This document shows, piece by piece, positions 13,591-45,491 of a DNA stretch of 64,000 nucleotides. The DNA lies in assembly GCF_027920545.1 (NCBI RefSeq), contig NZ_CP115859.1, forward strand, positions 3,373,156 to 3,437,155, read 5' to 3'. The first letter of the stretch is position 1; each line of letters opens with the position of its first letter. The translations under genes and the position numbers were made by a program. The notes under the pieces were generated by a model that worked only from the letters and a program-made list of their open reading frames with translations, was not told where the DNA came from and did not search any database. Source of the DNA: Chryseobacterium camelliae (GTDB lineage: Bacteria; Bacteroidota; Bacteroidia; Flavobacteriales; Weeksellaceae).

Positions 13591-13627
13591 AGTTCCGGCG
13601 GAAGCGAAGCTTCCGCCGGAACTTTTT
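13591..13627 (+). terminator. GC-rich hairpin terminator after lysS
   Basis: AGTTCCGGCGGAAGC, loop GAA, GCTTCCGCCGGAACT: a perfect 15-bp stem followed by TTTTT. It belongs to a family of look-alike hairpins in this window (14515-14551, 45465-45491 and the split copy at 22377/32822). Confidence 0.93.
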
Positions 13628-14514: not shown

Positions 14515-14551
14515 GGGTTTCGGCGGTCAGCAAAGCTGACCGCCGAAACCC
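14515..14551. terminator. GC-rich hairpin terminator between ompA-like gene and cydB
   Basis: GGGTTTCGGCGGTCAGC, loop AAA, GCTGACCGCCGAAACCC: a perfect 17-bp stem between convergent genes. No long T-tract follows on either side, so termination efficiency is uncertain. Same hairpin family as 13591 and 45465. Confidence 0.8.
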
Positions 14552-15568: not shown

Positions 15569-16908
15569 GACTTTTGGTTTTTAAGGTTAAACTGAGCATC
15601 AGTCGGATCATATAATCTCGGAACCATCTGTATTTGTCGTCTCAAAAGAAACACAATAATTAATGATAAGGAAATGAAGATCGCTGTGAAAAAGTAGAAT
15701 GAATACTGAATCCCCGGCATTGGAGTTACGGCTTCTGCGGTTCTCATGATTCCGTAAATAATCCATGGTTGTCTTCCGACTTCAGTGACTGTCCAGCCAG
15801 CTTCCAAAGCGATATATCCGAAAGGTGTGGCGATTAAAAAGGTCTTCAATAGCCAGTTTTTAGCCAGCCATTCTTTTTTGAAAAATACAGCGTAGAGATA
15901 AACGATTCCGATAGTTATCATTACAACTCCAAAGAAAATCATGATCTGAAAAGCATAATGTACAACGGCAATCGGAGGCCATTCATCTTTTGGGAAATCT
16001 TTCAATCCTTTTACTTCAGCATTAAAATCATTTGCCACTAGAAAGCTCAATACCTTTGGAATCTTTACGGCATATTTTATTTCCTCTTTTTTCTCATCTG
16101 GAATTCCGCCGATAACGAAAGACGCTCCTTTTTCTGTTTCAAAATGAGCTTCCATGGCAGCTAGTTTTATAGGTTGTCTTTCTGCAACAGATTTTGCGGC
16201 AACATCACCGCTTAAAGGTGCTCCGAATGCTCCGATCAATGCAAATCCGGCTGCAATTCTGAATGCTTTCGTATGAAATTCAACATTCTTTTTTCTCATG
16301 ATTAAATAAGCATGAACTCCTGCGACCGCAAATCCCGTTGCACAAAATGCAGCAACCGTCATGTGTAAAGCCTGAGGAAACCAGGCATCATTGAACATGG
16401 CTTTAATTGGATCTATATTTAAATATTGTCCGTTCACGTAATCAAATCCGGCAGGTGAATTCATCCATGCATTAGCCGCAATCACTAAAATTCCTGAAGC
16501 TAAGCCGCTTAAACCCACTAAAAAACCGCAAAACCAGTGAAACCATTTATTAAACCTATCCCATCCATAAAGGAAAAAACCAATCGCAATGGCTTCAATG
16601 AAGAATGCGGTTCCTTCCAAAGAAAATGGCATCCCGAAAATGGGACCAGCATGTTTCATGAAATTTGGCCATAAAAGTCCGAGTTCGAAAGAAAGCATTG
16701 TTCCGGAAACCGCTCCGACGGCGAACAGAATAGCTACTCCTTTGCTCCATGCTTTGGTGAGCCCTTTATAAATTTCGTTTTTTGTTTTTAAGTATTTCCA
16801 GTGAGCGAAAGCCATCAGAAAAGGCATTACCATCCCAACACAAGAGAAAATGATGTGAAAACCGAGTGACATCGCCATTTGTGCACGAGCTGCAAGAAAG
16901 TCGTCCAT
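15565..16908 (-). CDS. cydA: Cytochrome bd ubiquinol oxidase subunit I
   Basis: The heme-binding catalytic subunit of the bd oxidase, reducing oxygen with menaquinol at low oxygen. About 447 residues from ATG at 16908 (MDDFLAARAQMAMSLGFHIIF); the frame extends to 16941 with MLTFIYSKLIF. Seen: heme-ligand His in MSLGFHIIFSCVG, LWPNFMKHAGPIFGMPFSLEG, GWTVTEVGRQPWIIYG. The quinol (Q) loop between helices VI and VII is the short version. Operon with cydB. Confidence 0.96.
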   Translation of the reverse strand: MDDFLAARAQMAMSLGFHIIFSCVGMVMPFLMAFAHWKYLKTKNEIYKGLTKAWSKGVAILFAVGAVSGTMLSFELGLLWPNFMKHAGPIFGMPFSLEGTAFFIEAIAIGFFLYGWDRFNKWFHWFCGFLVGLSGLASGILVIAANAWMNSPAGFDYVNGQYLNIDPIKAMFNDAWFPQALHMTVAAFCATGFAVAGVHAYLIMRKKNVEFHTKAFRIAAGFALIGAFGAPLSGDVAAKSVAERQPIKLAAMEAHFETEKGASFVIGGIPDEKKEEIKYAVKIPKVLSFLVANDFNAEVKGLKDFPKDEWPPIAVVHYAFQIMIFFGVVMITIGIVYLYAVFFKKEWLAKNWLLKTFLIATPFGYIALEAGWTVTEVGRQPWIIYGIMRTAEAVTPMPGIQYSFYFFTAIFISLSLIIVFLLRRQIQMVPRLYDPTDAQFNLKNQKS

Positions 16909-17137
16909 AAATATCAATTTTGAGTAAATAAATGTAAGCATAAATTAGAGATGTTCAGTATGATTTACAACAGTATGGGTTTAAATAATAGGTTTTAACT
17001 TTGATATTTTTTGAAATAAAGAATCTGTTCTTTTTGTGGAAAAATCCTCTTTTTTTGACATATTTTAACTTTCGTACCTCGAAAAAAATCACGATATTTG
17101 TGAGTCTTTGCATTGGGCAAAGTTTTTAAAATTTGAT

Positions 17138-19072
17138 ATGAGTCAGAAACAATATACAGCTAGTAGTATTCAGGCATTGGAAGGAATGGAGCACGTACGT
17201 ATGCGTCCTTCGATGTACATTGGTGATGTGGGAGTAAGAGGTCTCCATCATTTGGTTTATGAAGTAGTAGATAACTCTATTGACGAGGCGTTGGCAGGAT
17301 ACTGTGATACGATCTTCGTTGCTATTAAAGAAGGAAACGGAATCGAGGTCAGTGATAACGGTAGAGGTATTCCTGTTGACTTTCATGAAAAAGAACAAAA
17401 ATCTGCTCTTGAGGTTGTAATGACGAAAATCGGAGCCGGAGGTAAGTTCGATAAAGATTCTTATAAGGTTTCGGGTGGTCTTCACGGAGTTGGGGTGTCG
17501 TGTGTAAATGCACTTTCCAACGAAATGATTACTACTGTTTACAGAGACGGGAACATCTACCAGCAGATATATTCTAAAGGAAAAGCGCAAACCGGAGTTG
17601 AAGAAATAGGTCACAGCGAAAAGAGAGGAACCAAGCAGTTCTTCCAGCCGGATGATACTATTTTTTCAGAATTAGTATACAATTATGATACATTAGCAAG
17701 CCGTTTAAGAGAGCTTTCTTACCTTAATAAAGGAATTACCATTACGCTTACTGACGAAAGAGAAACATTGGAAGATGGTTCGTTCAGATCGGAAGTTTTC
17801 CATTCTGAAGGCGGTTTGAAAGAATTCGTTGCCTTCATCGACGGAAATCGTGAATCAATCATGGAACATGTAATTTTCATGGAAGGTGAAAGAGACGATA
17901 TCCCGGTTGAGGTGGCGATGCGTTATAATACCTCATTCAACGAAAATCTTCACTCTTACGTTAATAACATCAATACTCACGAAGGAGGTACTCACTTGGC
18001 AGGTTTCAGACGTGCTTTAACGAGAACTTTAAAGAAATATGCCGATGAATTAGGACTTCCGGCAAAAGAAAAAGTAGAGATTACAGGAGATGACTTCCGT
18101 GAAGGTCTTACGGCGGTAGTGTCTGTAAAAGTAATGGAGCCTCAGTTTGAAGGGCAAACCAAAACTAAATTAGGGAACTCCGAAGTTTCCGGTGCTGTTG
18201 ATAAAATAGTAGGGGAAATGTTGACAAATTTCTTGGAGGAAAACCCTAACGAAGCGAAAATTATTGTACAGAAAGTTGTTTTGGCTGCAAAAGCAAGACA
18301 GGCTGCAAAAAAAGCTCGTGAAATGGTTCAGAGAAAATCTCCGATGGGAGGTTCCGGACTTCCGGGTAAATTGTCTGACTGTTCATCTAAAAACCCTGAA
18401 GAATCAGAGATCTTCCTAGTGGAGGGTGATTCCGCAGGTGGAACGGCAAAACAGGGACGAGATAGATTCTTCCAGGCCATTCTTCCGTTAAGAGGTAAAA
18501 TTCTGAATGTGGAGAAATCAATGCTTCACAAAGTGTATGATAACGAAGAAATCAAGAATATTTATACAGCTTTAGGAGTTTCAGTAGGAACAGAGGAAGA
18601 CAGCAAAGCTCTGAATATGTCTAAATTAAGATACCATAAGATCGTTATCATGACCGATGCCGATATTGACGGTTCTCACATTTCTACTTTGATCTTGACA
18701 TTCTTCTTCAGATATATGAAAGAACTGATTGAGAACGGATATATTTATATCGCTCAACCACCTTTGTATTTATTGAAAAAAGGAAACAAAAAACAGTATG
18801 CTTATAACGAAAAAGAGCGTGAGGAATTTACTTTAGAAATGTCTCCGGATGGGAAAGGTGTTGAGGTTCAGCGTTACAAAGGTCTTGGAGAGATGAATCC
18901 TGAACAACTTTGGGAAACGACTCTTAATCCTGAACACAGAATCCTGAAACAAGTAACGATTGATAATGCAGTTGAGGCAGACAGTGTATTCTCTATGTTG
19001 ATGGGGGATGAGGTTCCACCAAGAAGAGAGTTTATTGAGAAGAATGCAAAATATGCTAAAATTGATGCATAA
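17138..19072 (+). CDS. gyrB: DNA gyrase subunit B
   Basis: The ATPase subunit of DNA gyrase. 644 residues from ATG at 17138 (MSQKQYTASSIQALEGMEHVRMRP); the frame is open to a TTG at 17108, which lies too close to the likely promoter (GATATTTG at 17092-17099). Seen: GHKL motifs DNSIDEALAGY, DNGRGIPV and GGLHGVGVS; the TOPRIM motifs LVEGDSAGGTAK and MTDADIDGSHI; and the C-terminal QRYKGLGEMNPEQLW. It lacks the ~170-residue insertion of E. coli GyrB, as usual outside proteobacteria. Confidence 0.97.
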   Translation: MSQKQYTASSIQALEGMEHVRMRPSMYIGDVGVRGLHHLVYEVVDNSIDEALAGYCDTIFVAIKEGNGIEVSDNGRGIPVDFHEKEQKSALEVVMTKIGAGGKFDKDSYKVSGGLHGVGVSCVNALSNEMITTVYRDGNIYQQIYSKGKAQTGVEEIGHSEKRGTKQFFQPDDTIFSELVYNYDTLASRLRELSYLNKGITITLTDERETLEDGSFRSEVFHSEGGLKEFVAFIDGNRESIMEHVIFMEGERDDIPVEVAMRYNTSFNENLHSYVNNINTHEGGTHLAGFRRALTRTLKKYADELGLPAKEKVEITGDDFREGLTAVVSVKVMEPQFEGQTKTKLGNSEVSGAVDKIVGEMLTNFLEENPNEAKIIVQKVVLAAKARQAAKKAREMVQRKSPMGGSGLPGKLSDCSSKNPEESEIFLVEGDSAGGTAKQGRDRFFQAILPLRGKILNVEKSMLHKVYDNEEIKNIYTALGVSVGTEEDSKALNMSKLRYHKIVIMTDADIDGSHISTLILTFFFRYMKELIENGYIYIAQPPLYLLKKGNKKQYAYNEKEREEFTLEMSPDGKGVEVQRYKGLGEMNPEQLWETTLNPEHRILKQVTIDNAVEADSVFSMLMGDEVPPRREFIEKNAKYAKIDA

Positions 19073-21028: not shown

Positions 21029-22309
21029 TCAAATTTCAAGCTTTTTCTCTATCTCATTTGGATGATCCAAACAATACTGCAGCTGATTTTTATCCAGTTG
21101 CTTTTCCCAGTTGGCAACAACTACGGTTGCTACAGAATTTCCTATAACGTTCGTTAAAGCACGACATTCACTCATAAACTTATCAATTCCCAGGATTAAG
21201 GTCATCCCGGCGATGGGAATTTCGGGAACTACGGCTAATGTGGCGGCCAACGTTACAAAACCAGCTCCTGTTACGCCTGCAGCTCCTTTAGAACTTAGCA
21301 TAGCCACTAAAAGCAACATCATTTGTTTTTCAATCGGAAGATGAATATTCAAAGCCTGGGCAATAAACAAAGAAGCTAAGGTCATATAAATATTGGTTCC
21401 GTCGAGATTGAAAGAATATCCGGTAGGAACTACCAATCCTACAATTGCTCTTGAACATCCCGCTTTTTCCAGTTTTTCCATAATTCCCGGAAGCGCAGAT
21501 TCAGAAGAGCTTGTTCCTAGTACTAAAAGGAGTTCTTCTTTTAAATAGTACATCAGTTTGAAAATGTTGAATCCATTGTACCAAGCCATTGTGCCTAGTA
21601 TCAATACAATAAAAAGAATGGAAGTAATATAAAATGTTCCGACTAAAAATATGAGGTTGAGTACAGAGTGAAGTCCGTATTTTCCGATAGTAAAAGCCAT
21701 TGCTCCGAAAGCCCCGATTGGGGCAAACTTCATAAGCATATGAACAATCTTGAAGATAGGCGTGGAAAGATCCTGTAAAAAATCTGTTACTTTCTTGCTT
21801 TTTTCTTTTGTGAGAACCAGGGCGATCCCCATTAGAATAGAAACCAGAAGTACTTGTAAAATATTTTCTCCAACCAGAGGACTGAACAATGTCTCAGGAA
21901 TGATATTCATGATAAACCCGGTCAACGTAGTTTCATGAGCTTTTTGTTGATATTGTGAAACATCACCAGAAAGTGTAGAAGGATTAATATTTAAACCGTG
22001 TCCCGGCTGCAGGATATTTCCTACAACGAGTCCAATAATTAATGCTAAAGTAGAAAAAGTAAAAAAGTAAATCATTGCTTTTACCGCAATTCTTCCCACT
22101 TTTTTAAGATCGGTCATATGAGCAATTCCTAAAGTAAGCGTGATAAAAATTACAGGGGCAATAATCATTTTTACTAATTTGATAAAGCCGTCACCGAGCG
22201 GTTTCATTTTTTCGCCCAGTTCAGGATAAAATTTCCCTAAAAGAATTCCTGCAATAATTGATATAATTACTTGAAAATAAAGTTGTTGTTGGATTTTTTT
22301 TGTTTTCAA
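21029..22309 (-). CDS. Dicarboxylate/amino acid:cation symporter (DAACS family)
   Basis: 426 residues with 8 transmembrane helices and two re-entrant loops. Seen: the serine-rich hairpin [47 protein letters not shown] and [14 protein letters not shown] [25 protein letters not shown], the substrate and cation site of GltP/DctA proteins. It imports glutamate, aspartate or C4-dicarboxylates with protons or sodium; which one cannot be told. It originally had a hairpin terminator or intergenic hairpin upstream that is now split by the island. Confidence 0.93.
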
Positions 22310-22376
22310 AGAAATATTGTTTTTGATATGCGAAAATTAGTGAAATTTACTTTAAAATATGACGGATGTCATGATT

Positions 22377-22396
22377 GGTTTCGGCGGGGCTGAAAG
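22377..22396. repeat. Left half of a split hairpin plus CTGAAAG repeat
   Basis: GGTTTCGGCGGGGC (22377-22390) is the exact reverse complement of 32809-32822. The direct repeat CTGAAAG covers 22390-22396 and recurs at 32803-32809. Joining the two sites recreates a perfect 14-bp hairpin with loop TGAAA. Confidence 0.9.
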
Positions 22397-22632
22397 TATT
22401 GCCGTGATTGAAATCAAATGAAAGCTCTTGAAATGAGTCTTGTGTAATAACGGCTCTTTTCAGGAGGTTTCTATTTTTGGTATATGACTATTTACCTATG
22501 AAAATTTAAGATTCTTTCAACAGATTTCGGAAATGTTGGAACATTGTCGACACAAATTCCAACCCTTGATTTTTAGTTTTGCTCGTATATTATGAAAATA
22601 AATTTATTTAACCAAATTTTAACATGTGACAA
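22397..22632. other. Left end of the element, non-coding
   Basis: No convincing gene. It holds the motif TTTCGGAAATGTTGGAACA (22525-22543), which recurs near the right end of the element and may be a recombinase arm site. The rest is AT-rich. Confidence 0.5.
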
Positions 22633-22664
22633 TTTGGCAGTCTGTCAAAATTTTCGTATCTTTG
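22633..22664 (+). promoter_or_regulatory. Promoter of the truncated recombinase
   Basis: -33 TTTG (22633-22636), 20-bp spacer, -7 TATCTTTG (22657-22664): the best-matching Bacteroidetes promoter in the window. The ATG is 48 nt downstream at 22713. Confidence 0.75.
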
Positions 22665-22712
22665 CACTCCTTAAAAACACAAGTTCCCATAACTTTTTAA
22701 ATCAAATAATTT

Positions 22713-23171
22713 ATGTTAAAGACAAAATTTTTTGTCAGACACACGTCTGGCGAAGGCGTAACGCCTATTTATGTAAGAGTAACCAATGGTCGAGCGCTCG
22801 ATCGTAAAGCTCCAACCAAAGAAACCTGTATTGTTTCTCATTGGGATAGTGAAAACAGAATGATGAAAGAGAGATTTTTCGTTGAGCAAAAAGGTAAATT
22901 AGTTGAGAAAAGAGATGGAGTAACAAGAGCATTGGTAATACAAAATAAAGAAGTTAATGCGAGGCTTCAAGAATTAGAAAAGAAGATTGAAAAATCTTTT
23001 AAAGAATCGGAAGGAGTTGAGTTTAACTTGGAGTGGTTAAAAAATATTATTAATCCGCCTGTTGTTAAAGAAGATGCTATCCCTGATGATTTTGTTGCTT
23101 ACTGCGATATTTTCACCGAACAAAAGAAACATGATGTTAGCAAAGAATATTTAGGTAAAATTAATCGTATA
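22713..23171 (+). pseudogene. Tyrosine recombinase/integrase, N-terminal part only
   Basis: About 153 codons of a Bacteroidetes-type phage/transposon integrase. The N-terminal arm-binding domain (KTKFFVRHTSGEGVTPIYVRVTNG, residues 3-26; TKETCIVSHWDSENRMM) and the start of the SAM-like core-binding domain (PDDFVAYCDIFTEQKKHDVSKEYLGKINRI) are present. The catalytic domain with the Arg-His-Arg-Tyr residues is missing: IS21 copy 1 begins at 23172 and no continuation is found beyond it or beyond copy 2. Not functional as a recombinase. Confidence 0.85.
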
Positions 23172-23316
23172 TGTAGAATCCTTCAAAATTGACCATCTTA
23201 ATCCTGCGAAAGTGACCAGTTGATTCCTGAGCAAATTGACCAGGGTATTCCTGCTCAAATTGACCACCCAAAAAAGTCAGAAAACGTGTCTTGAATAACT
23301 TAGCCAAAAAATACCA

Positions 23317-24875
23317 ATGGCTAACAAAAGAATAGACATGTTGAACATCAAACAATTATTACGATTATACACCCAGGGAGTAAGTAAATTGCAGATAAGC
23401 AAACAACTGGGTATCTCACGCAATACTGCCAAAAAGTATATTAGCCTGTTCCATGAACACCAACTTACATATGATGAGTTGATAGAGTTGAGTGATGAAG
23501 ATTTAGATGATTTATTCGAGACTCCGCCAACCGATATAAGGGATAAGGACAGTATCAAAAAACAACTTGAATCGCTGTTTCCTTACATATCCAAAGAACT
23601 AAAACGTGTTGGGGTTACCCGTTATCTGCTATGGGAAGAATACATAGATAAATATCCTTCAGGCTACCAATATTCCCGTTTTTGTCATCATTACAGGGAA
23701 TGGTGTAAAAAGGTAAACCCTTCCATGCATATTGAACATAAGGCTGGGGATAAACTTTTTGTGGATTATACTGGGAAAAAGCTTCACATTATTGATAAAG
23801 AAACAGGAGAACAACAGGAAGTTGAAGTCTTCGTATCTATACTTGGCGCCAGTGGTATGACCTTCGTAGAAGCTACAAGGACCCAGGGGAAAGAAGATTT
23901 TCTTGGAAGCCTTACCAAAGCCCTGCATTATTATGGAGGAGTTCCCGCAGCTATTGTTACCGATAACCTGCGTACAGCCGTAAAAAAGAGCCATAAGTAC
24001 GAACCTGTCATCACTGATTCCCTCCTGGATTTTGCTTCGCACTATAGTACCACAATACTTCCCACGCGTACCTACCATCCTAAGGACAAGGCTTTGGTTG
24101 AGAATGCGGTACGTATTGTTTATACCCGCATTTTTGCTCCATTGCGTAAAGATCACTTCTTTAGCCTGGAAGCATTGAACAAAGCTATAGAAAACCTTCT
24201 GGAGGGATATAATGAAGCTCCCATGAAAAGAAAGAAGTATTCCAGGGCTGACGTTTTCCGTGAGGTTGAAAAACATGCATTATCCCCACTACCGGCTATG
24301 GTGTACCAGCTCAAGCATTCTGTACGTGCCACTGTTCATAAGACCAGCCATGTATATTTAAGCAAAGACAAACATTATTACAGTGTTCCGTTCAGCTATA
24401 TTGGTAAAAAAGTAAACATTATTTTTAGTAAAAACACAGTCGAAATTTACTATGATCAGCGCAGAATAGCATTCCATAACAGAGTCCTGGCCAAATATCA
24501 GTATACAACTGTTAAAGAGCATATGCCTTCATCTTATCAGTTTATGACGGAATGGAATCCCTCCGGTTTATCTCTTGGGGAAGGTCTGTCGGAGAATATT
24601 GTGAACAGTACATCATCAAAATCCTGGAAAAGAAACAGCATCCTGAGCAGTCCTATAAAACCTGCCTGGGAATCCTTTCATTATCAAAAAAGATTGGCAA
24701 CATAAGACTTGACAATGCCTGTAAAAGAGCATTGGGATATGAAAAATACAGCCTTGCCATGATTAAAAGCATCTTGGAAAGAGGACTGGATAATCTCACC
24801 GATGACGATGCATTTTTTGAAGAAAAGAAACTGCCTAAACACAAAAATATAAGGGGCGGAAAATACTATCAGTAA
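23317..24875 (+). pseudogene. istA: IstA transposase, frameshifted
   Basis: IS21-type DDE transposase with an N-terminal helix-turn-helix (GVSKLQISKQLGISRNTAKKY) and a retroviral-integrase-like core: Asp in KLFVDYTGK, Asp in AIVTDNLRTAV, Glu in KALVENAVRIVY. Loss of one C near 24563 shifts the frame after residue ~414. The original frame stops at 24705, and the true C-terminus resumes in another frame to 24875. Copy 2 keeps the intact 519-residue version, which shows this is a mutation and not a programmed shift. Confidence 0.92.
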
Positions 24876-24916
24876 TACCTACAATCATTAACAATTAAAT
24901 CATTAATACAAAACCT

Positions 24917-25660
24917 ATGAATCAGGCAACATTAGAAAAAATGAAACATTTAAAGCTCTACGGAATGCACAGAGCTTTTTCCACAACAATGGAAACAGGA
25001 AGTATCTCTTATACCAACGATGAACTTATTGCCTACTTGATTGAATCCGAGTATGACGACAGGGAAAGCAGAAAGGTTGAGCGGTTAATCACTTCTGCCA
25101 GATTCAGGTACAGGGCATTTATGGAAGAGATTACAGCATCTTCTTCCAGGAATATTGATAAGAATACCATTGGAAGGTTATCTTCCTGCGATTTTATCTC
25201 GCAGAAACAGAATATTCTTATTACAGGATCAACAGGAGTTGGTAAAAGTTTTATAGCAACTGCCATAGGCTACAAAGCCTGTACAATGGGATATAAAGTC
25301 ATGTACTTCAGCATCAACAAACTCTTCTCAAAGCTTAAAATGGCTAAGGCAGACGGATCTTATCTTAAAGAGATTGACCGTATAGAAAAGCAGGACCTTA
25401 TTATTCTTGATGATTTTGGATTGCAATCCCTGGATAATTTGAAAAGACAGGATTTTATGGAGATCATTGAAGACAGGCACGGAAAACGCTCCACTATTAT
25501 TGCTTCGCAACTTCCCGTAAGTGTATGGCATGAAGTAATTGCGGAACAAACAATAGCCGATGCAATCCTTGACAGAATGGTACATAACTCCCTGAGAATA
25601 GACCTTAAAGGGGAATCTATGAGAAGGAAAAAAGCTGATCAGAAAATCAGCTCAGAATAA
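24917..25660 (+). CDS. istB: IstB transposition helper ATPase (copy 1)
   Basis: 247-residue AAA+ ATPase that assembles on target DNA and recruits IstA. Seen: Walker A ITGSTGVGKSFIATA (residues ~104-118), Walker B LIILDDFGLQSL and the R-rich C-terminus. Intact and identical in sequence to the istB of copy 2. It lies 41 bp after istA. Confidence 0.95.
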   Translation: MNQATLEKMKHLKLYGMHRAFSTTMETGSISYTNDELIAYLIESEYDDRESRKVERLITSARFRYRAFMEEITASSSRNIDKNTIGRLSSCDFISQKQNILITGSTGVGKSFIATAIGYKACTMGYKVMYFSINKLFSKLKMAKADGSYLKEIDRIEKQDLIILDDFGLQSLDNLKRQDFMEIIEDRHGKRSTIIASQLPVSVWHEVIAEQTIADAILDRMVHNSLRIDLKGESMRRKKADQKISSE

Positions 25661-25843
25661 AGATTTATTTTATATTTTTAAACCATCTTTTAGACACCGT
25701 TTTTGACTTCATTCTTAGTGGTCAATTTAATCAGGAATTAGGTGGTCAATTTATCTGGAATATACACCTAAAGGACCTTACAATAATTATATAATAGTTT
25801 ACCGTAATGTTGTTGAAATTTCAAATGAAAGACAAATAGGAAA

Positions 25844-25863
25844 AGCCACCGATTTTGGTGGCT
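25844..25863 (-). terminator. Terminator of the RHS/immunity operon
   Basis: AGCCACC-AAAATC-GGTGGCT on the minus strand followed by TTTT, just after the stop of the lipoprotein gene at 25870. Confidence 0.8.
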
Positions 25864-25869
25864 CTATCA

Positions 25870-26253
25870 TTAATTATGAGTTTTTTCATTATACTCTTTT
25901 TCTGTAATGAGAGTATCTTTTAAAACTTTTATCCCATTTACATTTTCTTTATATTCATATATTATATTAGAAGATGGCTTATAGCATTTTAGATAGAGAG
26001 TATCTTTTCCTTTAGAATAAATATCAATCACAGAACCAAAATTTCCGTGAAAAACAATATCTTCTTTATTATTTTTTTCTAAAGCAACATAATTTGTAAT
26101 ATCTGATATTGTACTTATTTGAAAAAAAATTGCTTTAAAACTTCCGTTGTCAATAGTTTTAATAATAATTCTTTTTTCCTTTTCTTGCTCTGCAGTACTT
26201 TCTTTTTTACAGCTATATAAGCAAGTCAAAATTATCAAAAATAATATCCTCAT
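25870..26253 (-). CDS. Small lipoprotein, probable immunity protein for the RHS toxin
   Basis: 127 residues with a lipoprotein signal (MRILFLIILTCLYSC, Cys15). The mature part is charged and beta-rich and matches no family I know. It starts 3 nt after the RHS stop codon, on the same strand, as immunity genes of polymorphic toxins do. A periplasm-facing lipoprotein immunity factor would suit a toxin acting in the envelope or passing through the periplasm. Function is inferred only from position and size. An alternative is an RHS-associated accessory lipoprotein. Confidence 0.6.
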   Translation of the reverse strand: MRILFLIILTCLYSCKKESTAEQEKEKRIIIKTIDNGSFKAIFFQISTISDITNYVALEKNNKEDIVFHGNFGSVIDIYSKGKDTLYLKCYKPSSNIIYEYKENVNGIKVLKDTLITEKEYNEKTHN

Positions 26254-26256
26254 TTC

Positions 26257-29200
26257 TTAATATTTTATATCTGTTCTGTAAGGGAATCTTCCATAAAAAC
26301 CATGAAAAATATATGACCCTGAAAATGTGTGTTCTCCATAGAATGGCCAGCCTGAATTATATCCTGTAGCGCCTTTATTTTGGGATTGATTGTAAGCCCC
26401 TACTTTTGGCATTACTTGGTTATAAAAAAAGTCTTGGTGGAATGGCGATTTATCTGCTGCTACATTCATATTAGCTCCAAATATTTCATTACCTAATCCT
26501 CTAATTGTTGTAAGTTTTCCATCAAGCATAACTACACTTTCTGGAGTGAAACCTGCAACACTTGCTTTAATATCAAATTTCTTCCCATTTCCTGAATTAT
26601 CTCTCAAATATGAAAGAGTATCATACCAACCCATCCCTTTAGTTTGTTGCTTAAACAAATTGACATAGATATTTTTGATGTCATTACCATTTAAATTTTT
26701 ATATGCCTTTCCATTAATCTTCATATTGTATTCTGGATTTAGGCTAAAAGTGGCATTTATATGTCCTTCAAATTTACCTGTAATATTATTCGCCTGCATA
26801 AATTCAGTTGGAAGATGGCTTTCAGCAATTTTTTTGCTTGAATTTATATCATAGTTGCCCTTTTCATCGGTAATATACACTCCTGTATTTCCATCATTTT
26901 TAGCATTTACAACTGTGTAAGTTCCATCTTTGTTGTCTTTTACTCCAGTACTTTCTACTCCTCGTCCATCTGGATCGATAAAACTAATTGGATTGTTCAT
27001 CGCATAGTTATACGGCGACCATTTGCGATATTCCTCACTCAATGGGTCTTGATTAAACCATCTACCTAAATCGGGCATATACATTCTTGCTCCATAATCA
27101 TACATTCCTGATTCGGTCTGTAATTCTTTTCCATTGTATTTATATTGGTAGGCTGCATTTCCACCTATATTATTATATCCTTCATGCTTCAATCCAAAAG
27201 GATAATAATTGTTTTCTTCAAGAACTTCTGCGCTGCCATTGATACTTTTAGAGTAACTGAGGCGAACATTTCCCAAATGATCTGTATAATTGTAAATATA
27301 CTTATTATTTTCAAAGTTGTAATATCCTTCCGAAGTTGCCACAAATTTTAATGTAGGAGCTATAAATATATTTCCTTGTGCCTCATATTGAAAACCATCA
27401 AGATAATCTGTAACCTTATACGCTTCAGAACTTGTTTTTCCTGTTCCGTATGTATAGGTCTTTTTTAATTTTGCTCCATCTGCACGATATAAATACTGAG
27501 TCGTAATATTTCTTGTCTCATTTTCCCCAGTAAATATATTTCTAAAAAAATACGTCTGATTAAATATTAAATTATCAGGAAGATTTAAATGATTATACTG
27601 AATTCCCAGTATTCCTTTATCTTCATGACTGGTCATATTGCCATTAAGGTCATAAGCGATAGCGGTCCCAGGTACTTCAGGATATCCTCCATAATTATTT
27701 GAAGCATCTGAAACTGTACTTAATCTATTACTGTTATCATTGTCTTGGTAGTGATAGGTAAGATTATCAAAAGCCTCCGCTATTGTATAATTTTGAAGTA
27801 GACCTCCCGATCTTTCTAAATGAGAAATATTTCCATTCAAATCATAATCTATTTTCTCAAAATATTCCCTTGCTGATGGATTGTTGTCTTTTTGATAGAA
27901 ACCAGCCTGCAATCTGTTCAAACTATCATATACATATCCATAACGTCTTAAATTATCATTTGGAGTAGTTGCTGTTTTCCATGACACCTCTGCAATATTT
28001 CCATTGAATTTAGGCTTTACCTTTAAATCTAAATAACCTGAATGTGGAACTTCCTCTCCCTCTACCTGATTGTAATTAATCTTATATCCAAACAGATCAG
28101 TAGCTCCTAAATTTGTTGGATCATTAATCTGTGTCATCCAGCCTCGTATGTTGTACGTATAATCTATTGTTTGAAGTGGTGTTAAAGCATCTTTCCCCCC
28201 AACTTTTTTAGTTGCAAGCTGAGAGAGTTCATTATACTCATTCTGTGCTAAGATTTCTTCCTCTGGATTATTATCCACCTTATGTATGTGGACTTTAAGC
28301 CTGTTTTGGGCATCATATTCAAAAGTTTCTAAGATCATTCTTTCGTTATCTCCAGACATCCTTTTATGACGGGTAATAGCTTGCTGTGCTAATCCAGTAA
28401 AATCAAGCTTTGACTCTGTTTGAGTATAGCCTCCTAAATAATTAATTGAATGAGTTCCTATTACTCTCCCTTTTGTATCATAGTAATTATAATTCTTCGT
28501 CCAGTTGTTATCTTCGATGTTTTTTACATACGAGGCTAAAGCCAACCCTTTTGTATTAAGCTCTGAACTCATATTATCTGTCAAAATAACACTCTGGTTG
28601 GGAATAGTTGGAGTAAAGGCAGGTGTTCCTACTGGATAGGTATCATAATAATTGACAGACAATATGGTTTCTATCTGCTGATACAAACCGTTGGTATAAT
28701 AGATTTGCATTCCGCTCATGGTAAAGCCCTGTGCATCTCTATTTTCAGTGATTACAAAAAGATTGGTGGTGTCTTGTAGCCATTCTCGTGTTTTACCAGG
28801 AAGGGGCATAAGTCCCGTATAAGCCACTCTTCCAAATTTGTCGTATTTTGTAACCAGCCATGTTGAAGACGGTCTTAAATTGGCGTCTTGTGTCGCTATC
28901 AATCGGTCTGCTTTATCATACACCATATATTCCCAGTCTTTTCCTGGAAGCCTCTTCTCAACCAATCGGTTTTTGCTATCATATTTGTACTGATAACAAA
29001 GGTTATTTAGAACCGTATCTGGAATAGCAGCTCCAGCACCTAGATTTTTAATTTGATCTACTGCTTTAGGAGACAAAACATAAGCCAACTGATCATAATC
29101 ATTGTAAATATAATAGGTATCGGCACTGTCTGTAGCATTCAACATCTTTCTTATTAATACAATTTGCCCTTGTCCGTTTTTAAACTCTATCGTTTTATTA

Positions 29201-29793
29201 CCATCTTCATCGGTTATGGTATTTTTGTATAACTGACCTGTTGTATAACTTGTTGTAGAAAGCGTTATGAAAGCGGTGAAGGTTGTATAATCAAAGGTTG
29301 CAACATATTTCTTTACTTCTCCGTTTATATTGACATCATAACCAAATTGTACAGGTTTATCGTTCCATGCAATTCCAGCCTGTTTCTGACTTAGAATTCG
29401 ATCTAAGGGTGAGTTTTCCAGTTGTTTTTCTGCATAGATCTTTTCTGTTCCGTAAGGGGTATTGGGAGCATTGGCTAATGGATTGGTATAGATCGCTCCG
29501 TTCTGAGTTCCTGTCTGAGGAACGGGAAGGTAATCTATTGTCTGTCTTCCAAACTGGTCATATTCTATTTTAGTTACGACATCCTTACTCGTAGGAGTAG
29601 CTTTGATATTAACCACCTGTTTGGGTCTTCCCAAACCGTCAAAATACTGAACGGTTTCTGAGGTTCTTACATTTGGTTCAGTAGGGTCACTTAAATAAGT
29701 TTTGGAATATACATAGTTCTCAGTGGTACTTAACTGTGCATGAGCAAAGTCCATCACAAATAAAGCGCTTATAGGAATTATTATTTTTTTCAT
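26257..29793 (-). CDS. Secreted RHS-repeat protein with a variable C-terminal domain
   Basis: 1178 residues. Signal peptide MKKIIIPISALFVMDFAHA. N-terminal region with SETVQYFDGLGRPKQVVNIKATP (DUF6443-like, residues ~40-65), then many YD/RHS repeats (YDQFGRQTIDYLP, YDSKNRLVEKRLPGKDW, YDKADRLIATQD, YDLNGNISHLER). The conserved RHS core closes with YNGKELQTESGMYDYGARMYMPDLGRW and NPISFIDPDGR (residue ~944). The remaining ~234 residues are a different, non-repeat domain, the place where polymorphic toxins carry their effector. It ends in WPFYGEHTFSGSYIFHGFYGRF, aromatic-rich and unknown to me. The upstream partner gene is cut off by IS21 copy 2, whose istA-istB transcription reads into this gene. 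Confidence 0.88.
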   Translation of the reverse strand: MKKIIIPISALFVMDFAHAQLSTTENYVYSKTYLSDPTEPNVRTSETVQYFDGLGRPKQVVNIKATPTSKDVVTKIEYDQFGRQTIDYLPVPQTGTQNGAIYTNPLANAPNTPYGTEKIYAEKQLENSPLDRILSQKQAGIAWNDKPVQFGYDVNINGEVKKYVATFDYTTFTAFITLSTTSYTTGQLYKNTITDEDGNKTIEFKNGQGQIVLIRKMLNATDSADTYYIYNDYDQLAYVLSPKAVDQIKNLGAGAAIPDTVLNNLCYQYKYDSKNRLVEKRLPGKDWEYMVYDKADRLIATQDANLRPSSTWLVTKYDKFGRVAYTGLMPLPGKTREWLQDTTNLFVITENRDAQGFTMSGMQIYYTNGLYQQIETILSVNYYDTYPVGTPAFTPTIPNQSVILTDNMSSELNTKGLALASYVKNIEDNNWTKNYNYYDTKGRVIGTHSINYLGGYTQTESKLDFTGLAQQAITRHKRMSGDNERMILETFEYDAQNRLKVHIHKVDNNPEEEILAQNEYNELSQLATKKVGGKDALTPLQTIDYTYNIRGWMTQINDPTNLGATDLFGYKINYNQVEGEEVPHSGYLDLKVKPKFNGNIAEVSWKTATTPNDNLRRYGYVYDSLNRLQAGFYQKDNNPSAREYFEKIDYDLNGNISHLERSGGLLQNYTIAEAFDNLTYHYQDNDNSNRLSTVSDASNNYGGYPEVPGTAIAYDLNGNMTSHEDKGILGIQYNHLNLPDNLIFNQTYFFRNIFTGENETRNITTQYLYRADGAKLKKTYTYGTGKTSSEAYKVTDYLDGFQYEAQGNIFIAPTLKFVATSEGYYNFENNKYIYNYTDHLGNVRLSYSKSINGSAEVLEENNYYPFGLKHEGYNNIGGNAAYQYKYNGKELQTESGMYDYGARMYMPDLGRWFNQDPLSEEYRKWSPYNYAMNNPISFIDPDGRGVESTGVKDNKDGTYTVVNAKNDGNTGVYITDEKGNYDINSSKKIAESHLPTEFMQANNITGKFEGHINATFSLNPEYNMKINGKAYKNLNGNDIKNIYVNLFKQQTKGMGWYDTLSYLRDNSGNGKKFDIKASVAGFTPESVVMLDGKLTTIRGLGNEIFGANMNVAADKSPFHQDFFYNQVMPKVGAYNQSQNKGATGYNSGWPFYGEHTFSGSYIFHGFYGRFPYRTDIKY

Positions 29794-29798
29794 CGATT

Positions 29799-30067
29799 TT
29801 AGTTTTTGTAGTTATATTTAAATTCTTTTATCGTCTTATAAACTGAATTCCCATTGATATCTTTATCTTGTTGCTTGATTTCCTTCAGTCTATTGGCTGT
29901 ATCATAGAGATATACTTCTCTTATTCCTGAGGGGGAAGTAATACTTCGTATTCCAATTAAAGGATCATATGAATAAGTCGTAATCTGATAATCTTTAAAT
30001 GTACTATCAATTCTAAGATCATCCAATGAAGATATTAATGCGGCCTCATTGTTTGGATCTAATAAAT
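29799..30067 (-). pseudogene. C-terminal fragment of a second RHS-associated protein
   Basis: About 89 codons in frame up to the IS21 end: NLLDPNNEAALISSLDDLRIDS, then YSYDPLIGIRSITSPSGIREVYLYDTANRLKEIKQQDKD, ending EFKYNYKN. The YDPL.G.rsit.PSG and YD..nRL pattern is RHS-like. It appears to be the tail of the large protein usually encoded just upstream of flavobacterial RHS genes. Codons upstream of 30068 are IS21 sequence, so the original 5' part has been lost from the window. Confidence 0.8.
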
Positions 30068-30173
30068 TGTATATTCCAGATAAATTGACCACCTAATTCC
30101 TGATTAAATTGACCACTAAGAATGAAGTCAAAAACGGTGTCTAAAAGATGGTTTAAAAATATAAAATAAATCT

Positions 30174-30917
30174 TTATTCTGAGCTGATTTTCTGATCAGC
30201 TTTTTTCCTTCTCATAGATTCCCCTTTAAGGTCTATTCTCAGGGAGTTATGTACCATTCTGTCAAGGATTGCATCGGCTATTGTTTGTTCCGCAATTACT
30301 TCATGCCATACACTTACGGGAAGTTGCGAAGCAATAATAGTGGAGCGTTTTCCGTGCCTGTCTTCAATGATCTCCATAAAATCCTGTCTTTTCAAATTAT
30401 CCAGGGATTGCAATCCAAAATCATCAAGAATAATAAGGTCCTGCTTTTCTATACGGTCAATCTCTTTAAGATAAGATCCGTCTGCCTTAGCCATTTTAAG
30501 CTTTGAGAAGAGTTTGTTGATGCTGAAGTACATGACTTTATATCCCATTGTACAGGCTTTGTAGCCTATGGCAGTTGCTATAAAACTTTTACCAACTCCT
30601 GTTGATCCTGTAATAAGAATATTCTGTTTCTGCGAGATAAAATCGCAGGAAGATAACCTTCCAATGGTATTCTTATCAATATTCCTGGAAGAAGATGCTG
30701 TAATCTCTTCCATAAATGCCCTGTACCTGAATCTGGCAGAAGTGATTAACCGCTCAACCTTTCTGCTTTCCCTGTCGTCATACTCGGATTCAATCAAGTA
30801 GGCAATAAGTTCATCGTTGGTATAAGAGATACTTCCTGTTTCCATTGTTGTGGAAAAAGCTCTGTGCATTCCGTAGAGCTTTAAATGTTTCATTTTTTCT
30901 AATGTTGCCTGATTCAT
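30174..30917 (-). CDS. istB: IstB transposition helper ATPase (copy 2)
   Basis: 247-residue AAA+ helper ATPase, the same protein as in copy 1 (Walker A GSTGVGKS, Walker B LIILDDFG). It lies 41 bp downstream of istA on the minus strand. Confidence 0.95.
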   Translation of the reverse strand: MNQATLEKMKHLKLYGMHRAFSTTMETGSISYTNDELIAYLIESEYDDRESRKVERLITSARFRYRAFMEEITASSSRNIDKNTIGRLSSCDFISQKQNILITGSTGVGKSFIATAIGYKACTMGYKVMYFSINKLFSKLKMAKADGSYLKEIDRIEKQDLIILDDFGLQSLDNLKRQDFMEIIEDRHGKRSTIIASQLPVSVWHEVIAEQTIADAILDRMVHNSLRIDLKGESMRRKKADQKISSE

Positions 30918-30958
30918 AGGTTTTGTATTAATGATTTAATTGTTAATGATTGTAGGTA

Positions 30959-32518
30959 TTACTGATAGTATTTTCCGCCCCTTATATTTTTGTGTTTAGG
31001 CAGTTTCTTTTCTTCAAAAAATGCATCGTCATCGGTGAGATTATCCAGTCCTCTTTCCAAGATGCTTTTAATCATGGCAAGGCTGTATTTTTCATATCCC
31101 AATGCTCTTTTACAGGCATTGTCAAGTCTTATGTTGCCAATCTTTTTTGATAATGAAAGGATTCCCAGGCAGGTTTTATAGGACTGCTCAGGATGCTGTT
31201 TCTTTTCCAGGATTTTGATGATGTACTGTTCACAATATTCTCCGACAGACCTTCCCCAAGAGATAAACCGGGAGGGATTCCATTCCGTCATAAACTGATA
31301 AGATGAAGGCATATGCTCTTTAACAGTTGTATACTGATATTTGGCCAGGACTCTGTTATGGAATGCTATTCTGCGCTGATCATAGTAAATTTCGACTGTG
31401 TTTTTACTAAAAATAATGTTTACTTTTTTACCAATATAGCTGAACGGAACACTGTAATAATGTTTGTCTTTGCTTAAATATACATGGCTGGTCTTATGAA
31501 CAGTGGCACGTACAGAATGCTTGAGCTGGTACACCATAGCCGGTAGTGGGGATAATGCATGTTTTTCAACCTCACGGAAAACGTCAGCCCTGGAATACTT
31601 CTTTCTTTTCATGGGAGCTTCATTATATCCCTCCAGAAGGTTTTCTATAGCTTTGTTCAATGCTTCCAGGCTAAAGAAGTGATCTTTACGCAATGGAGCA
31701 AAAATGCGGGTATAAACAATACGTACCGCATTCTCAACCAAAGCCTTGTCCTTAGGATGGTAGGTACGCGTGGGAAGTATTGTGGTACTATAGTGCGAAG
31801 CAAAATCCAGGAGGGAATCAGTGATGACAGGTTCGTACTTATGGCTCTTTTTTACGGCTGTACGCAGGTTATCGGTAACAATAGCTGCGGGAACTCCTCC
31901 ATAATAATGCAGGGCTTTGGTAAGGCTTCCAAGAAAATCTTCTTTCCCCTGGGTCCTTGTAGCTTCTACGAAGGTCATACCACTGGCGCCAAGTATAGAT
32001 ACGAAGACTTCAACTTCCTGTTGTTCTCCTGTTTCTTTATCAATAATGTGAAGCTTTTTCCCAGTATAATCCACAAAAAGTTTATCCCCAGCCTTATGTT
32101 CAATATGCATGGAAGGGTTTACCTTTTTACACCATTCCCTGTAATGATGACAAAAACGGGAATATTGGTAGCCTGAAGGATATTTATCTATGTATTCTTC
32201 CCATAGCAGATAACGGGTAACCCCAACACGTTTTAGTTCTTTGGATATGTAAGGAAACAGCGATTCAAGTTGTTTTTTGATACTGTCCTTATCCCTTATA
32301 TCGGTTGGCGGAGTCTCGAATAAATCATCTAAATCTTCATCACTCAACTCTATCAACTCATCATATGTAAGTTGGTGTTCATGGAACAGGCTAATATACT
32401 TTTTGGCAGTATTGCGTGAGATACCCAGTTGTTTGCTTATCTGCAATTTACTTACTCCCTGGGTGTATAATCGTAATAATTGTTTGATGTTCAACATGTC
32501 TATTCTTTTGTTAGCCAT
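30959..32518 (-). CDS. istA: IstA transposase (copy 2, intact)
   Basis: 519-residue IS21 DDE transposase. N-terminal HTH (VSKLQISKQLGISRNTAKKY), catalytic acids in FVDYTGK, IVTDNLR and VENAVRIVY, then the C-terminal Mu-like beta barrel region (HVYLSKDKHYYSVPFSYIGKKV) and the tail LPKHKNIRGGKYY, which is the usual IstA ending. The frame is continuous across the CCC run that is shortened in copy 1. Confidence 0.96.
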   Translation of the reverse strand: MANKRIDMLNIKQLLRLYTQGVSKLQISKQLGISRNTAKKYISLFHEHQLTYDELIELSDEDLDDLFETPPTDIRDKDSIKKQLESLFPYISKELKRVGVTRYLLWEEYIDKYPSGYQYSRFCHHYREWCKKVNPSMHIEHKAGDKLFVDYTGKKLHIIDKETGEQQEVEVFVSILGASGMTFVEATRTQGKEDFLGSLTKALHYYGGVPAAIVTDNLRTAVKKSHKYEPVITDSLLDFASHYSTTILPTRTYHPKDKALVENAVRIVYTRIFAPLRKDHFFSLEALNKAIENLLEGYNEAPMKRKKYSRADVFREVEKHALSPLPAMVYQLKHSVRATVHKTSHVYLSKDKHYYSVPFSYIGKKVNIIFSKNTVEIYYDQRRIAFHNRVLAKYQYTTVKEHMPSSYQFMTEWNPSRFISWGRSVGEYCEQYIIKILEKKQHPEQSYKTCLGILSLSKKIGNIRLDNACKRALGYEKYSLAMIKSILERGLDNLTDDDAFFEEKKLPKHKNIRGGKYYQ

Positions 32519-32663
32519 TGGTATTTTTTGGCTAAGTTATTCAAGACACGTTTTCTGACTTTTTTGGGTGGTCAATTTGAGCAGGAATACCCTGGTCAAT
32601 TTGCTCAGGAATCAACTGGTCACTTTCGCAGGATTAAGATGGTCAATTTTGAAGGATTCTACA

Positions 32664-32802
32664 ATAATGATTATTTTTGTATTATTGTAACAGAGTCTTT
32701 TGAAGGTGTTGAAATTGAATGTCGGAAATATGTTGGAAAATTTCTGTAAAATAAAATCGGAATGTACGATGAATAAGGGGATTTCGATTTTAAAAGGCGA
32801 AA
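32664..32802. other. Right end of the element, non-coding
   Basis: 139 bp between IS21 copy 2 and the CTGAAAG repeat. It holds TCGGAAATATGTTGGAA at 32722-32738, a near copy of 22527-22541 in the same orientation. No gene seen. Confidence 0.5.
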
Positions 32803-32822
32803 CTGAAAGCCCCGCCGAAACC
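32803..32822. repeat. CTGAAAG repeat plus right half of the split hairpin
   Basis: CTGAAAG (32803-32809) followed by GCCCCGCCGAAACC (32809-32822), the exact complement of the left arm at 22377-22390. Confidence 0.9.
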
Positions 32823-32845
32823 ATTTTCAACCCTAAGGCTAGAAA

Positions 32846-34531
32846 TTATTCCACGGCTACAGAATCATCACCACGGCCGTCTGCAACCGCATGAATATTC
32901 CCGTTATTATCCATCAGGATCATTTCAGTTCTTCCTATTTGTCCCCATTTTTCCGTTTTATAGCCCAGGTTTTCTAATTCTTTAATCGTCGTTTCTGAAA
33001 AATTCTTTTCAAAGGCCACTGTTTCAGGGAGCCACTGATGATGGAATTTCGGAGCATTTACCGAAATATTGGCATTCAGTTTAAAATCAATGACATTTAC
33101 GACAGACTGATAAACAGAAGTTGGAATAGTCGTTCCACCCGGAGTTCCAACGATCATATAAGGTTTTTGATTCTTTAAAACAATCGTGGGAGTCATTGAA
33201 GAAAGCATTCTTTTGTTAGGTTGAATAGAATTTGCTTCGCCTCCTACAGCTCCGAACATATTCGGAACTCCAGGCTTTACCGAAAAATCATCCATTTCAT
33301 TATTCAAGAAAAATCCGGCTCCGGAAACAACCACTTTACTTCCGTATAAACCGTTTAGAGTGGTCGTAACGGCTGCAGCATTCCCGTCTTTATCAATAAT
33401 GGAAATATGAGTGGTTTCCGTAGATTCTTTTGGCTGTTTAATGATTTTTCCTACCTCGGAGCTTGGCGTTGCTTTGCTGAAACTGAAGTTTTTCCATCTG
33501 TTTTTTAAATATTCATCAGAAATCAAATAGGAGGTTTTATCCTGAATAAAGTCAGGATCACCCATATATTCGGCACGGTCGGCGAAGGCTCTTCTTTCAG
33601 CTTCTATCATGATTTGGACTGCCTGCGTAGAATTTTGCTGATATTTTTCAAGATTTTCGTAGCTCGACATTTTCAACATCTGAGCCAATAAAACTCCACC
33701 GCTTGAAGGTAAGGGCATAGAAACGATCGTATTCCCTTTATAATCAAATTCTAAAGCTTTTCTTTCCGCAACTTTATAATTTTTTAAATCTTCCTGAGTG
33801 ATGATTCCGCTACCTCTCTTCATTTCAGCAACGAGAAGTTCTGCCGTTTTTCCTTCATAAAATCCTTTTGCTCCTGATTTCTGAATTAATTTTAAGGTTT
33901 CTGCCAATTCCTTTTGGATCAGAATATCGCCTGCTTTCCAGGGAATGTCTTTCACAAAAACAATAGTAGATTGATTGTGTTTTTGAAAATGAGGCCTATT
34001 TGAATTCAGTAAATTGGCTTCCTGCTCTGTGATGGCAAATCCTTTTTCCGCAAGATCAATAGCCGGCTGAATGATTTTCTCCATAGGAAGTTGTCCGTAT
34101 TGTATGGTTGCAAAAAAACCGGCAATACTTCCCGGAATTCCTACGGCTAATCTTCCGTTTTGTGATAAATCGGTATTGGCTTTTCCTGTTTTATCGAGAT
34201 ACATGTCTCTTGATGCTTTTTTGGGAGCTGTTTCGCGGTAATCTATCGTAAATTTTTCACCGGTCTTTTTTACTCCGACTAGAAATCCGCCACCGCCGAT
34301 ATTTCCGGCTTGAGGATATACAACAGCTAAAGCATACTGGGTTGCAATAATAGCATCATAAGCATTTCCTCCCATTCTCAGAATTTTTGCTCCGGCTTCG
34401 CTTGCAAGAGGGTGGGCGGAAACAACCACTCCTTTATTTTTTACTTTCACCTCTTTTATAATCGTAATGTCTGTGTATTGTGCTGAAACAGAGAAGGAAA
34501 AAAGGATAAATGCGATGGCAATCTTGTTCAT
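32846..34531 (-). CDS. ggt: Gamma-glutamyltransferase
   Basis: Hydrolyses or transfers the gamma-glutamyl group of glutathione and related compounds in the periplasm. About 561 residues from ATG at 34531 (MNKIAIAFILFSFSVSAQ, signal peptide). Seen: QAGNIGGGGFLVG, the autocleavage/nucleophile threonine in TTHISIIDKDGNAAAVTTTLN (start of the small subunit), GFFLNNEMDDF and MIVGTPGGTTIPTSV. It is a full-length self-processing precursor. Just downstream of the island's right junction. Confidence 0.95.
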   Translation of the reverse strand: MNKIAIAFILFSFSVSAQYTDITIIKEVKVKNKGVVVSAHPLASEAGAKILRMGGNAYDAIIATQYALAVVYPQAGNIGGGGFLVGVKKTGEKFTIDYRETAPKKASRDMYLDKTGKANTDLSQNGRLAVGIPGSIAGFFATIQYGQLPMEKIIQPAIDLAEKGFAITEQEANLLNSNRPHFQKHNQSTIVFVKDIPWKAGDILIQKELAETLKLIQKSGAKGFYEGKTAELLVAEMKRGSGIITQEDLKNYKVAERKALEFDYKGNTIVSMPLPSSGGVLLAQMLKMSSYENLEKYQQNSTQAVQIMIEAERRAFADRAEYMGDPDFIQDKTSYLISDEYLKNRWKNFSFSKATPSSEVGKIIKQPKESTETTHISIIDKDGNAAAVTTTLNGLYGSKVVVSGAGFFLNNEMDDFSVKPGVPNMFGAVGGEANSIQPNKRMLSSMTPTIVLKNQKPYMIVGTPGGTTIPTSVYQSVVNVIDFKLNANISVNAPKFHHQWLPETVAFEKNFSETTIKELENLGYKTEKWGQIGRTEMILMDNNGNIHAVADGRGDDSVAVE

Positions 34532-34587
34532 TTGCAAATTTTATATTCTAATTTACAATTTTGTTTTAAGATAGGGTTTAAAATATT

Positions 34588-45464: not shown

Positions 45465-45491
45465 TTCGGCGGCGGCAAAGCCGCCGCCGAA
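45465..45491. terminator. GC-rich hairpin (CGG repeat stem)
   Basis: TTCGGCGGCGGC, loop AAA, GCCGCCGCCGAA: perfect 12-bp stem between convergent genes. Same family as 13591, 14515 and the split copy around the island. Confidence 0.8.

Follow-up and report, generated by a model that had tools for sequence, protein, structure and literature searches.

A 10.4-kb island in Chryseobacterium camelliae, lying between the gamma-glutamyltranspeptidase gene ggt and a symporter gene, separates the two arms of a perfect GC-rich dyad. With a probability of roughly 0.86, we regard this island as what remains of an integrative element with a tyrosine recombinase that targets the centre of GC-rich dyads at gene ends. 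The island is contained in the 64,000-nt stretch of the chromosome analysed here (the window), and its borders have counterparts in seven other elements with which its history can be compared.

The split dyad at ggt

The sequence GGTTTCGGCGGGGC is found at 22377-22390 on the forward strand and, with 0 mismatches, at 32809-32822 on the reverse strand, and the heptamer CTGAAAG adjoins each copy, confirming the exactly complementary arms, 10.4 kb apart, that the preliminary description of this DNA had reported. With the 7-bp core CTGAAAG counted apart, the arms are 14 bp long and exact complements (Table 1), and the chromosomal arms flanking the core jointly form a perfect dyad. The left junction (attL) can be written GGCGGGG-CTGAAAG-TATTGCC and the right junction (attR) GGCGAAA-CTGAAAG-CCCCGCC. 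When 200 random 20-bp left windows were searched in the same sequence, the longest arm reached 8 bp, compared with 14 bp for the real one; in a decoy control, two longer arm values disappeared after real element ends had been excluded.

Removal of the island with one copy of CTGAAAG had been predicted to restore the hairpin, and some relatives without the island match that reconstruction. Relatives of ggt are present in 93 of 98 genomes of the genus, and 30 loci, the window's own included, were compared. Of the 29 other loci, 22 have the symporter gene after ggt inside the 1.5-kb flank, at a distance of ~1.1 kb in L060. A GC-rich perfect hairpin occupies the gap between the two genes in 9 of the 22 (L038, L039, L040, L043, L044, L045, L048, L051, and L056); in six of the nine the loop is CTTTCAG, which is the window core in reverse complement, and L040 and L044 carry exactly the reconstructed 21-bp centre, GGCGGGGCTTTCAGCCCCGCC. 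The remaining gaps contain AT-rich hairpins (2/22) or no perfect stem of at least 9 bp in the first 700 nt (11/22). Collectively, these comparisons indicate that the insertion at the ggt site was precise, and that the target hairpin itself varies between species.

Related recombinases and their targets

As stated in the preliminary description, a truncated tyrosine recombinase lies just inside the left end; its frame ends at codon 159, just past the start of the left of two IS21-family copies, which cuts it. The remaining piece is 88% identical to residues 1-155 of an intact paralog encoded elsewhere in the same genome (L015:9524-10813), and the lost C-terminal part was not found in the window (tblastn, best E 0.08). 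Own-genome searches with the N-terminal query (E<=1e-3, all 10 candidates scored) and with the full-length query (E<=1e-40, best 5 of 14 candidates scored) returned solely the window piece and the paralog. The paralog matches Phage_int_SAM_5 (E 2.6e-10) and the integrase family phrog_216 (E 4.9e-11), with no NCBIfam family match and no relative in PDB at E<=0.01; the 159-aa piece has no Pfam family match. Catalysis by tyrosine recombinases relies on the residues R, HxxR, H/W, and Y.

Among 320 genomes of the family, with up to five candidates scored per genome, five intact recombinase genes at least 70% identical to the paralog were found, namely the paralog itself and those of G044, G134, G167, and G132, which are 71-72% identical to it. 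All five carry the motifs GQRISDF, HIGRR, T[GA]HKSE, and YIGK, which supply R, HxxR, H, and Y; the truncated window copy lacks the catalytic part. No new close member emerged from an order-wide search (395 genomes, up to four candidates scored per genome) or from a further search of genome contigs, which gave three loci, and a plasmid collection held no match at E<=1e-40.

A search for a left arm, a core, a right core, and a complementary right arm revealed perfect dyads at the window and at four relatives: G000b, which is in the same genome (arms AAGTTTCGGGCGGC and GCCGCCCGAAACTT around the core ACCAAAGGT), G044 (AATACACCAGAGGCGGC and GCCGCCTCTGGTGTATT around ATCGAAGAT), G167 (AAAAGCGGCGGAA and TTCCGCCGCTTTT around TCGAAGA), and G132a (ATAACTAGGGGCGGC and GCCGCCCCTAGTTAT around ATCGAAGAT). 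In these five elements, the left core begins 323-325 bp ahead of the recombinase ATG. G134, with complementary arms GGCTCGGGCTGTT and AACAGCCCGAGCC, escaped the search owing to a one-base difference between its left core, TCGAAGA, and its right core, TCTAAGA. Independently of the recombinase, left-end DNA of G044 was compared with 173 genomes of the genus (up to four candidates scored per genome) and matched in 10 of them, adding to the known members G120, G171, G028, G164, and two places in G156. In G120 and G171r (13.3 kb), both ends were found, and both elements split GGCGG dyads with the core TCGAAGA.

A perfect dyad is thus split in all eight elements with both ends found (the window, G000b, G044, G167, G132a, G134, G120, and G171r), which occupy six distinct loci. 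The arms are 12-18 bp long around a 7-bp core, all eight targets are perfect stems without bulges, and seven fit GGCGG-N11-CCGCC. The core is identical at both ends in seven of the eight, G134 having its one difference, and the cores in use are CTGAAAG, CCAAAGG, and TCGAAGA. The proposal that borders of recombinase relatives would lie in hairpin loops is therefore upheld by the five intact relatives and the two elements found from end DNA, three of these seven being at one locus. A classical search for att direct repeats (top three repeats per locus) placed a repeat at the element ends of this clade only in G132a, where it is the core region (13 bp).

Empty sites were established for three of the eight elements, the window (ggt) among them. 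For G000b, 2 of 29 loci after an NmrA-like gene (L157 and L165) have GGCGGCACC-AAA-GGTGCCGCC with a syntenic right flank, and for G132a, 8 of 23 loci after the neighbouring gene have the exact 21-mer GGCGGCATC-GAA-GATGCCGCC, the right flank aligning from base 1 in L182 and L184. For G044, there were no usable orthologs, other matches to the neighbouring gene being at most 58% identical. The dyad of L157 and L165 is also present in L161 with its loop reversed, and orthologous dyads carry AAA or TTT; which way the loop faces would determine the orientation in which an element inserts.

Maximum-likelihood analysis of 23 recombinases places the five intact dyad users in one clade (100/100), which groups with users of transfer RNA (tRNA)-Ser genes and the pair G260/G279 (85/83). 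Of 18 more distant recombinases (37-47% identity), the eight that were placed are all at tRNA-Ser, tRNA-Phe, or transfer-messenger RNA (tmRNA) ends: G185, G171, G132b, and G051 (45-47% identity) use the tRNA-Ser 3' end with 13-16 bp end repeats, and in the 37-41% group the repeats match the tRNA-Phe region (G115 and G166) or tmRNA (G119 and G069). The same dyad search at all 18 loci found no comparable dyad at an element end. G273, G260, and G279 have tRNA-Ser or tmRNA near the expected far end, with no convincing att repeat resolved; G117, G201, and G103 were grouped from the end motif alone; and G183, G135, G164, and G025, some of which show tmRNA-like end repeats, were left out of the placements. 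Relatives with unrelated attachment sites, which the preliminary description had named as evidence against its proposal, thus do exist, solely among these distant recombinases, and all close relatives split dyads. The simplest reading would be a single change of target. At the tRNA-Phe-linked G115 (L121/L122) and G166 (L123), a terminator-like hairpin and the tRNA 3'-end region are repeated at both element ends.

The motif GGCGG-N11-CCGCC occurs at 13 sites in the genome of the window and at none in a reversed-letter control. Twelve of the sites are perfect hairpins with stems extending 4-14 bp past the motif, and the thirteenth is inside an open frame. Taking script-derived open frames, as distinct from annotated genes, 11 of the 12 hairpins have, at a distance of 4-42 nt, the stop codon of a frame of at least 90 codons pointing at the hairpin, and 8 of the 12 lie between convergent frames; because of this position near stop codons, the dyads likely act as terminators. 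Seven other host genomes have 40 motif sites, against 14 in the control. Together, the eight genomes hold 53, and in 45 of these perfectly paired 9-bp arms surround 3 nt. The commonest cores among the 45 dyads, TCGAAGA (14) and CCAAAGG (9), are both used by elements. With several copies in each genome, the hairpins resemble docking sites already in place. Two of the three intact window hairpins described as being of this kind fit the motif (Table 1); the one at 14515 has N13.

Probable integration mechanism, alternatives, and known systems

Tyrosine recombinases act on core-type half-sites arranged as inverted repeats on either side of a 6-8 bp overlap. At the right end, the arm on the element side resembles such a half-site, reading GACGGCA, AACGGCA, GGCGAAA, or GGCAGAA as against GGCGGNN, and in G134 GGTTGCA as against GGCTGTT; at the left end, the element arm is TACTGGTG-like in most elements. 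Given this resemblance between element arms and target, we take the half-site to be GGCGGNN and the overlap to be the 7 bp that include the loop. Integration probably proceeds by the ordinary route of tyrosine recombinases, at a palindromic core: the recombinase would join the site of a circular element to the centre of a GC-rich dyad at a gene end, the dyad arms would supply two inverted GGCGGNN half-sites, and the 7 bp between them, hairpin loop included, would serve as the overlap for strand exchange. The core of each element would then match the loop region of the dyad it targets (CTGAAAG, CCAAAGG, or TCGAAGA), and insertion would put one dyad arm at each end of the element. The one-base core difference of G134, inside the overlap, could be a mismatch that is tolerated or a mutation that arose later.

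The first claim, that the dyad is recognised, is supported if taken to mean a pair of inverted half-sites on double-stranded DNA; the recombinase need not recognise a folded hairpin. A recombinase selective for structure, acting on an extruded cruciform or a single-stranded hairpin with perfect complementarity as its signal, would explain why all eight targets, including that of G134 without GGCGG, are perfect long dyads. However, because a hairpin is present at 45 of 53 motif sites in any case, the seven hairpin targets are no proof of recognition by folding, and they would be expected about one-third of the time without structural choice. The full 7-bp core at both ends also resembles normal two-strand exchange. 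The integron integrase is likewise a tyrosine recombinase with a hairpin-forming target, but attC, in the passages of PMC2727003 that concern it, is a folded single strand with unpaired extrahelical bases, whereas the dyads here are perfect and leave the full core at both ends. We therefore consider structure-selective integration improbable.

Several observations weigh against the integrative-element reading or narrow its basis. The hairpin at the ggt site is not universal, being GC-rich in 9 of 22 gaps, and the four closest ggt relatives (L034-L037) have another gene downstream. The window core CTGAAAG is absent from the 45 intact dyads, though it was seen at empty ggt sites in other species. 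GGCGG is missing from the G134 target, whose two cores differ by one base. G156a has a fitting left arm (GGCGGCA-CCAAAGG) and no right end within ~37 kb, and in G028r, G156b, and G164r the arms are not GGCGG and no right end was found. The distantly related G115 has the strongest complementary pair of the 18 distant loci, with arm 12 and core 8, which lies 1.6 kb ahead of the gene and apart from the tRNA-Phe repeat. The covariation score of a hairpin inside the right ends is reached by 19 of 500 shuffles, making it modestly better than shuffles. Finally, G167, G120, and G171r lie after genes whose proteins are 86-96% identical over 422-423 residues, so that all three follow the same gene and count as one locus; the insertion may be shared, or the site may have been hit repeatedly.

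This last point, together with the site after the NmrA-like gene that G000b and G028r have in common, is what an element with one favourite locus per lineage, the hairpin being incidental, would produce. Against it stand the six distinct loci, with three cores and always the same dyad geometry; the upstream proteins of the other five elements are unrelated to those of G167, G120, and G171r and to each other, and the window and G000b, in one genome, occupy different dyads. A fixed favourite site thus appears marginally less probable still than structural selection. The gene before the G120, G171r, and G167 dyads ends ...MYVVDIQ, MYLVDIQ, and MYIVDIQ, respectively, and G120 has shrunk to 3.2 kb. 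The left end of G028r (G028:C1 ~3785499) reads GGCTGTA-CCAAAGG at the orthologous NmrA site, with no right end in ~37 kb; G028r and G000b could reflect shared ancestry or a second hit on the same dyad.

That no mobile element is involved, the arms having been parted by IS21-driven rearrangement or transposition alone, can be dismissed almost with certainty: two nearly identical, mutually inverted IS21-family copies do fill much of the island, with no matching target duplications visible by eye at the flanks of either, but ~0.8 kb and ~0.15 kb separate them from the arms, the intervening ends are common to the other seven elements, contradicting such a separation, and the paralog has an intact recombinase at an equal distance from its end. 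A composite transposon as the whole explanation was likewise considered and rejected.

Among the closest known systems are islands targeting tRNA or tmRNA genes. These have related recombinases, 45-47% identical in the four placed tRNA-Ser users, encoded near one end and directed into the island. They leave direct repeats at the 3' end of the RNA gene, of 13-18 bp (tRNA-Ser and tmRNA) or of 34 and 49 bp (tRNA-Phe), whereas the elements described here split a dyad and have only the short core as common sequence. In CTnDOT-type recombination, the overlap need not match between attP and attB; here the G134 cores differ at one base, and the other seven pairs match. Group IIC introns prefer terminators. 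Like the present elements, they are mobile DNA aimed at a DNA stem-loop, although they use RNA-based retrotransposition and insert beside the stem, as the relevant part of PMC10190682 describes, whereas here a tyrosine recombinase inserts at the dyad centre. A retroelement was rejected for the island, with no Rfam match in 22300-32900 and no reverse transcriptase among the proteins scanned. Palindromic attB sequences are often tRNA arms. Integration into palindromes is shared with tyrosine integrases in general, which favour conserved palindromic sequences (Williams 2002, as cited in a passage of PMC4701971); the targets described here, by comparison with what that passage covers, are a dispersed family of GC-rich gene-end dyads.

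The novelty lies in what is targeted, namely terminator-like dyads that form a dispersed family and whose loops match the element cores. Among the papers listed by searches of the open-licence literature, none described an element family aimed at terminator dyads, older phage work on single terminator attachment sites being possible, and to that extent the claim that no described system has this target stands; the word "terminator" is missing from the main text of a review of mobilizable elements (PMC5704250) and of a survey of streptococcal elements (PMC4701971). We would give not quite even odds to the proposal that the lineage switched from a single RNA-gene site to multi-copy terminator dyads, in which GGCGG would serve as a universal half-site, the loop would be an overlap code that can be exchanged, and terminators at both element ends would compensate for the split one. 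If true, every genome would offer several near-harmless docking sites, and a site-specific integrase could gain many safe sites through a repeated regulatory dyad rather than a unique gene. Target sites would be predictable from the genome as GGCGG-N11-CCGCC with a matching loop, and target switching between recombinase relatives (tRNA-Ser users and dyad users) would become testable. Such a recombinase might also serve as a tool for inserting DNA at several neutral sites in each genome of Chryseobacterium-type bacteria.

Island interior, element ends, and cargo

The 10.4-kb element of the preliminary description has real element ends; its interior is mostly the two inverted IS21-family copies around an RHS-repeat gene, and not one intact element (Table 1). 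The lack of matching flank duplications at the IS copies suggests later rearrangement. Destruction of the recombinase by IS21-family copies came later, and the island is a decayed member of an integrative element family. The IstA frame of the left copy is shortened through an apparent one-base difference near 24563-24569. A third IS21-family copy, with nearly the same proteins, is present in L015 (13934-16278), followed by another RHS-type gene.

Table 1. Features of the island and of its surroundings, in window positions.
Feature	Position	Strand	Remark
Intact potential target GGCGG-N11-CCGCC inside longer hairpin	13597..13617	+	
Symporter gene, left flank	21029..22309	-	follows ggt in 22/29 relative loci
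Left arm of split dyad (chromosomal half of attL), TGGTTTCGGCGGGG	22376..22389	+	
Left-end 7-bp core (putative overlap) CTGAAAG	22390..22396	+	identical 7 bp at right end
Left-end inner hairpin, strong, terminator-like	22420..22471	+	counterpart in 9/9 left ends folded
Tyrosine recombinase, N-terminal 159 codons, catalytic part absent	22713..23192	+	cut by IS21-family copy
IS21-family copy 1	23172..25766	+	IstA frame shortened to 462 codons; IstB 24917-25660
RHS-repeat / DUF6443 protein, 1178 aa	26257..29793	-	flanked by both IS copies
IS21-family copy 2, inverted	30068..32663	-	IstA 519 aa
Right-end inner hairpin	32753..32791	+	counterpart in 8/8 right ends folded; some compensatory changes
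Right-end 7-bp core CTGAAAG	32803..32809	+	
Right arm of split dyad (chromosomal half of attR), CCCCGCCGAAACCA	32810..32823	+	
ggt (gamma-glutamyltranspeptidase)	32846..34537	-	its downstream hairpin split by island
Intact potential target GGCGG-N11-CCGCC inside longer hairpin	45468..45488	+	

All left ends folded have a long hairpin on the element side (fold energies of the 103-nt stretch -24.3 to -40.3, without shuffle control), and all right ends folded have a second one (-10.9 to -24.0, likewise without shuffle control). In the right-end hairpin, paired cells make up 88.3%; of the 15 pairs, 4 show changes on both sides and 9 are invariant, and one pair fails in 5 of 8 sequences. These figures give the pairing modest support. 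By analogy, these end hairpins may act as terminators that replace the split one, restoring the transcription stop to the gene end, and shield the element. In Tn916, a terminator near one end insulates the integrated element, according to the portion of PMC11658703 that deals with it, whereas the present elements have terminator-like hairpins within both ends, and the dyad that they target also resembles a terminator.

Next to the recombinase gene (int) is a gene for an HTH_17 protein, which matches an excisionase/regulator PHROG and scores below the cut-off of the NCBIfam excise model; the product of the following gene has no family match. No relaxase or transfer genes were found among the element proteins scanned, which covered part of the genes only. 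The cargo of G132a comprises type I restriction-modification genes (N6_Mtase and Methylase_S), GmrSD, ArdA, a serine resolvase, and an EndoU-domain protein, and given this restriction-modification, GmrSD, and ArdA content, the dyads may be entry points for defence genes. At L097:8137-16339, the cargo includes an EndoU-domain protein, GmrSD, and HsdS- and HsdM-like genes, with ArdA close by (16730-17272).

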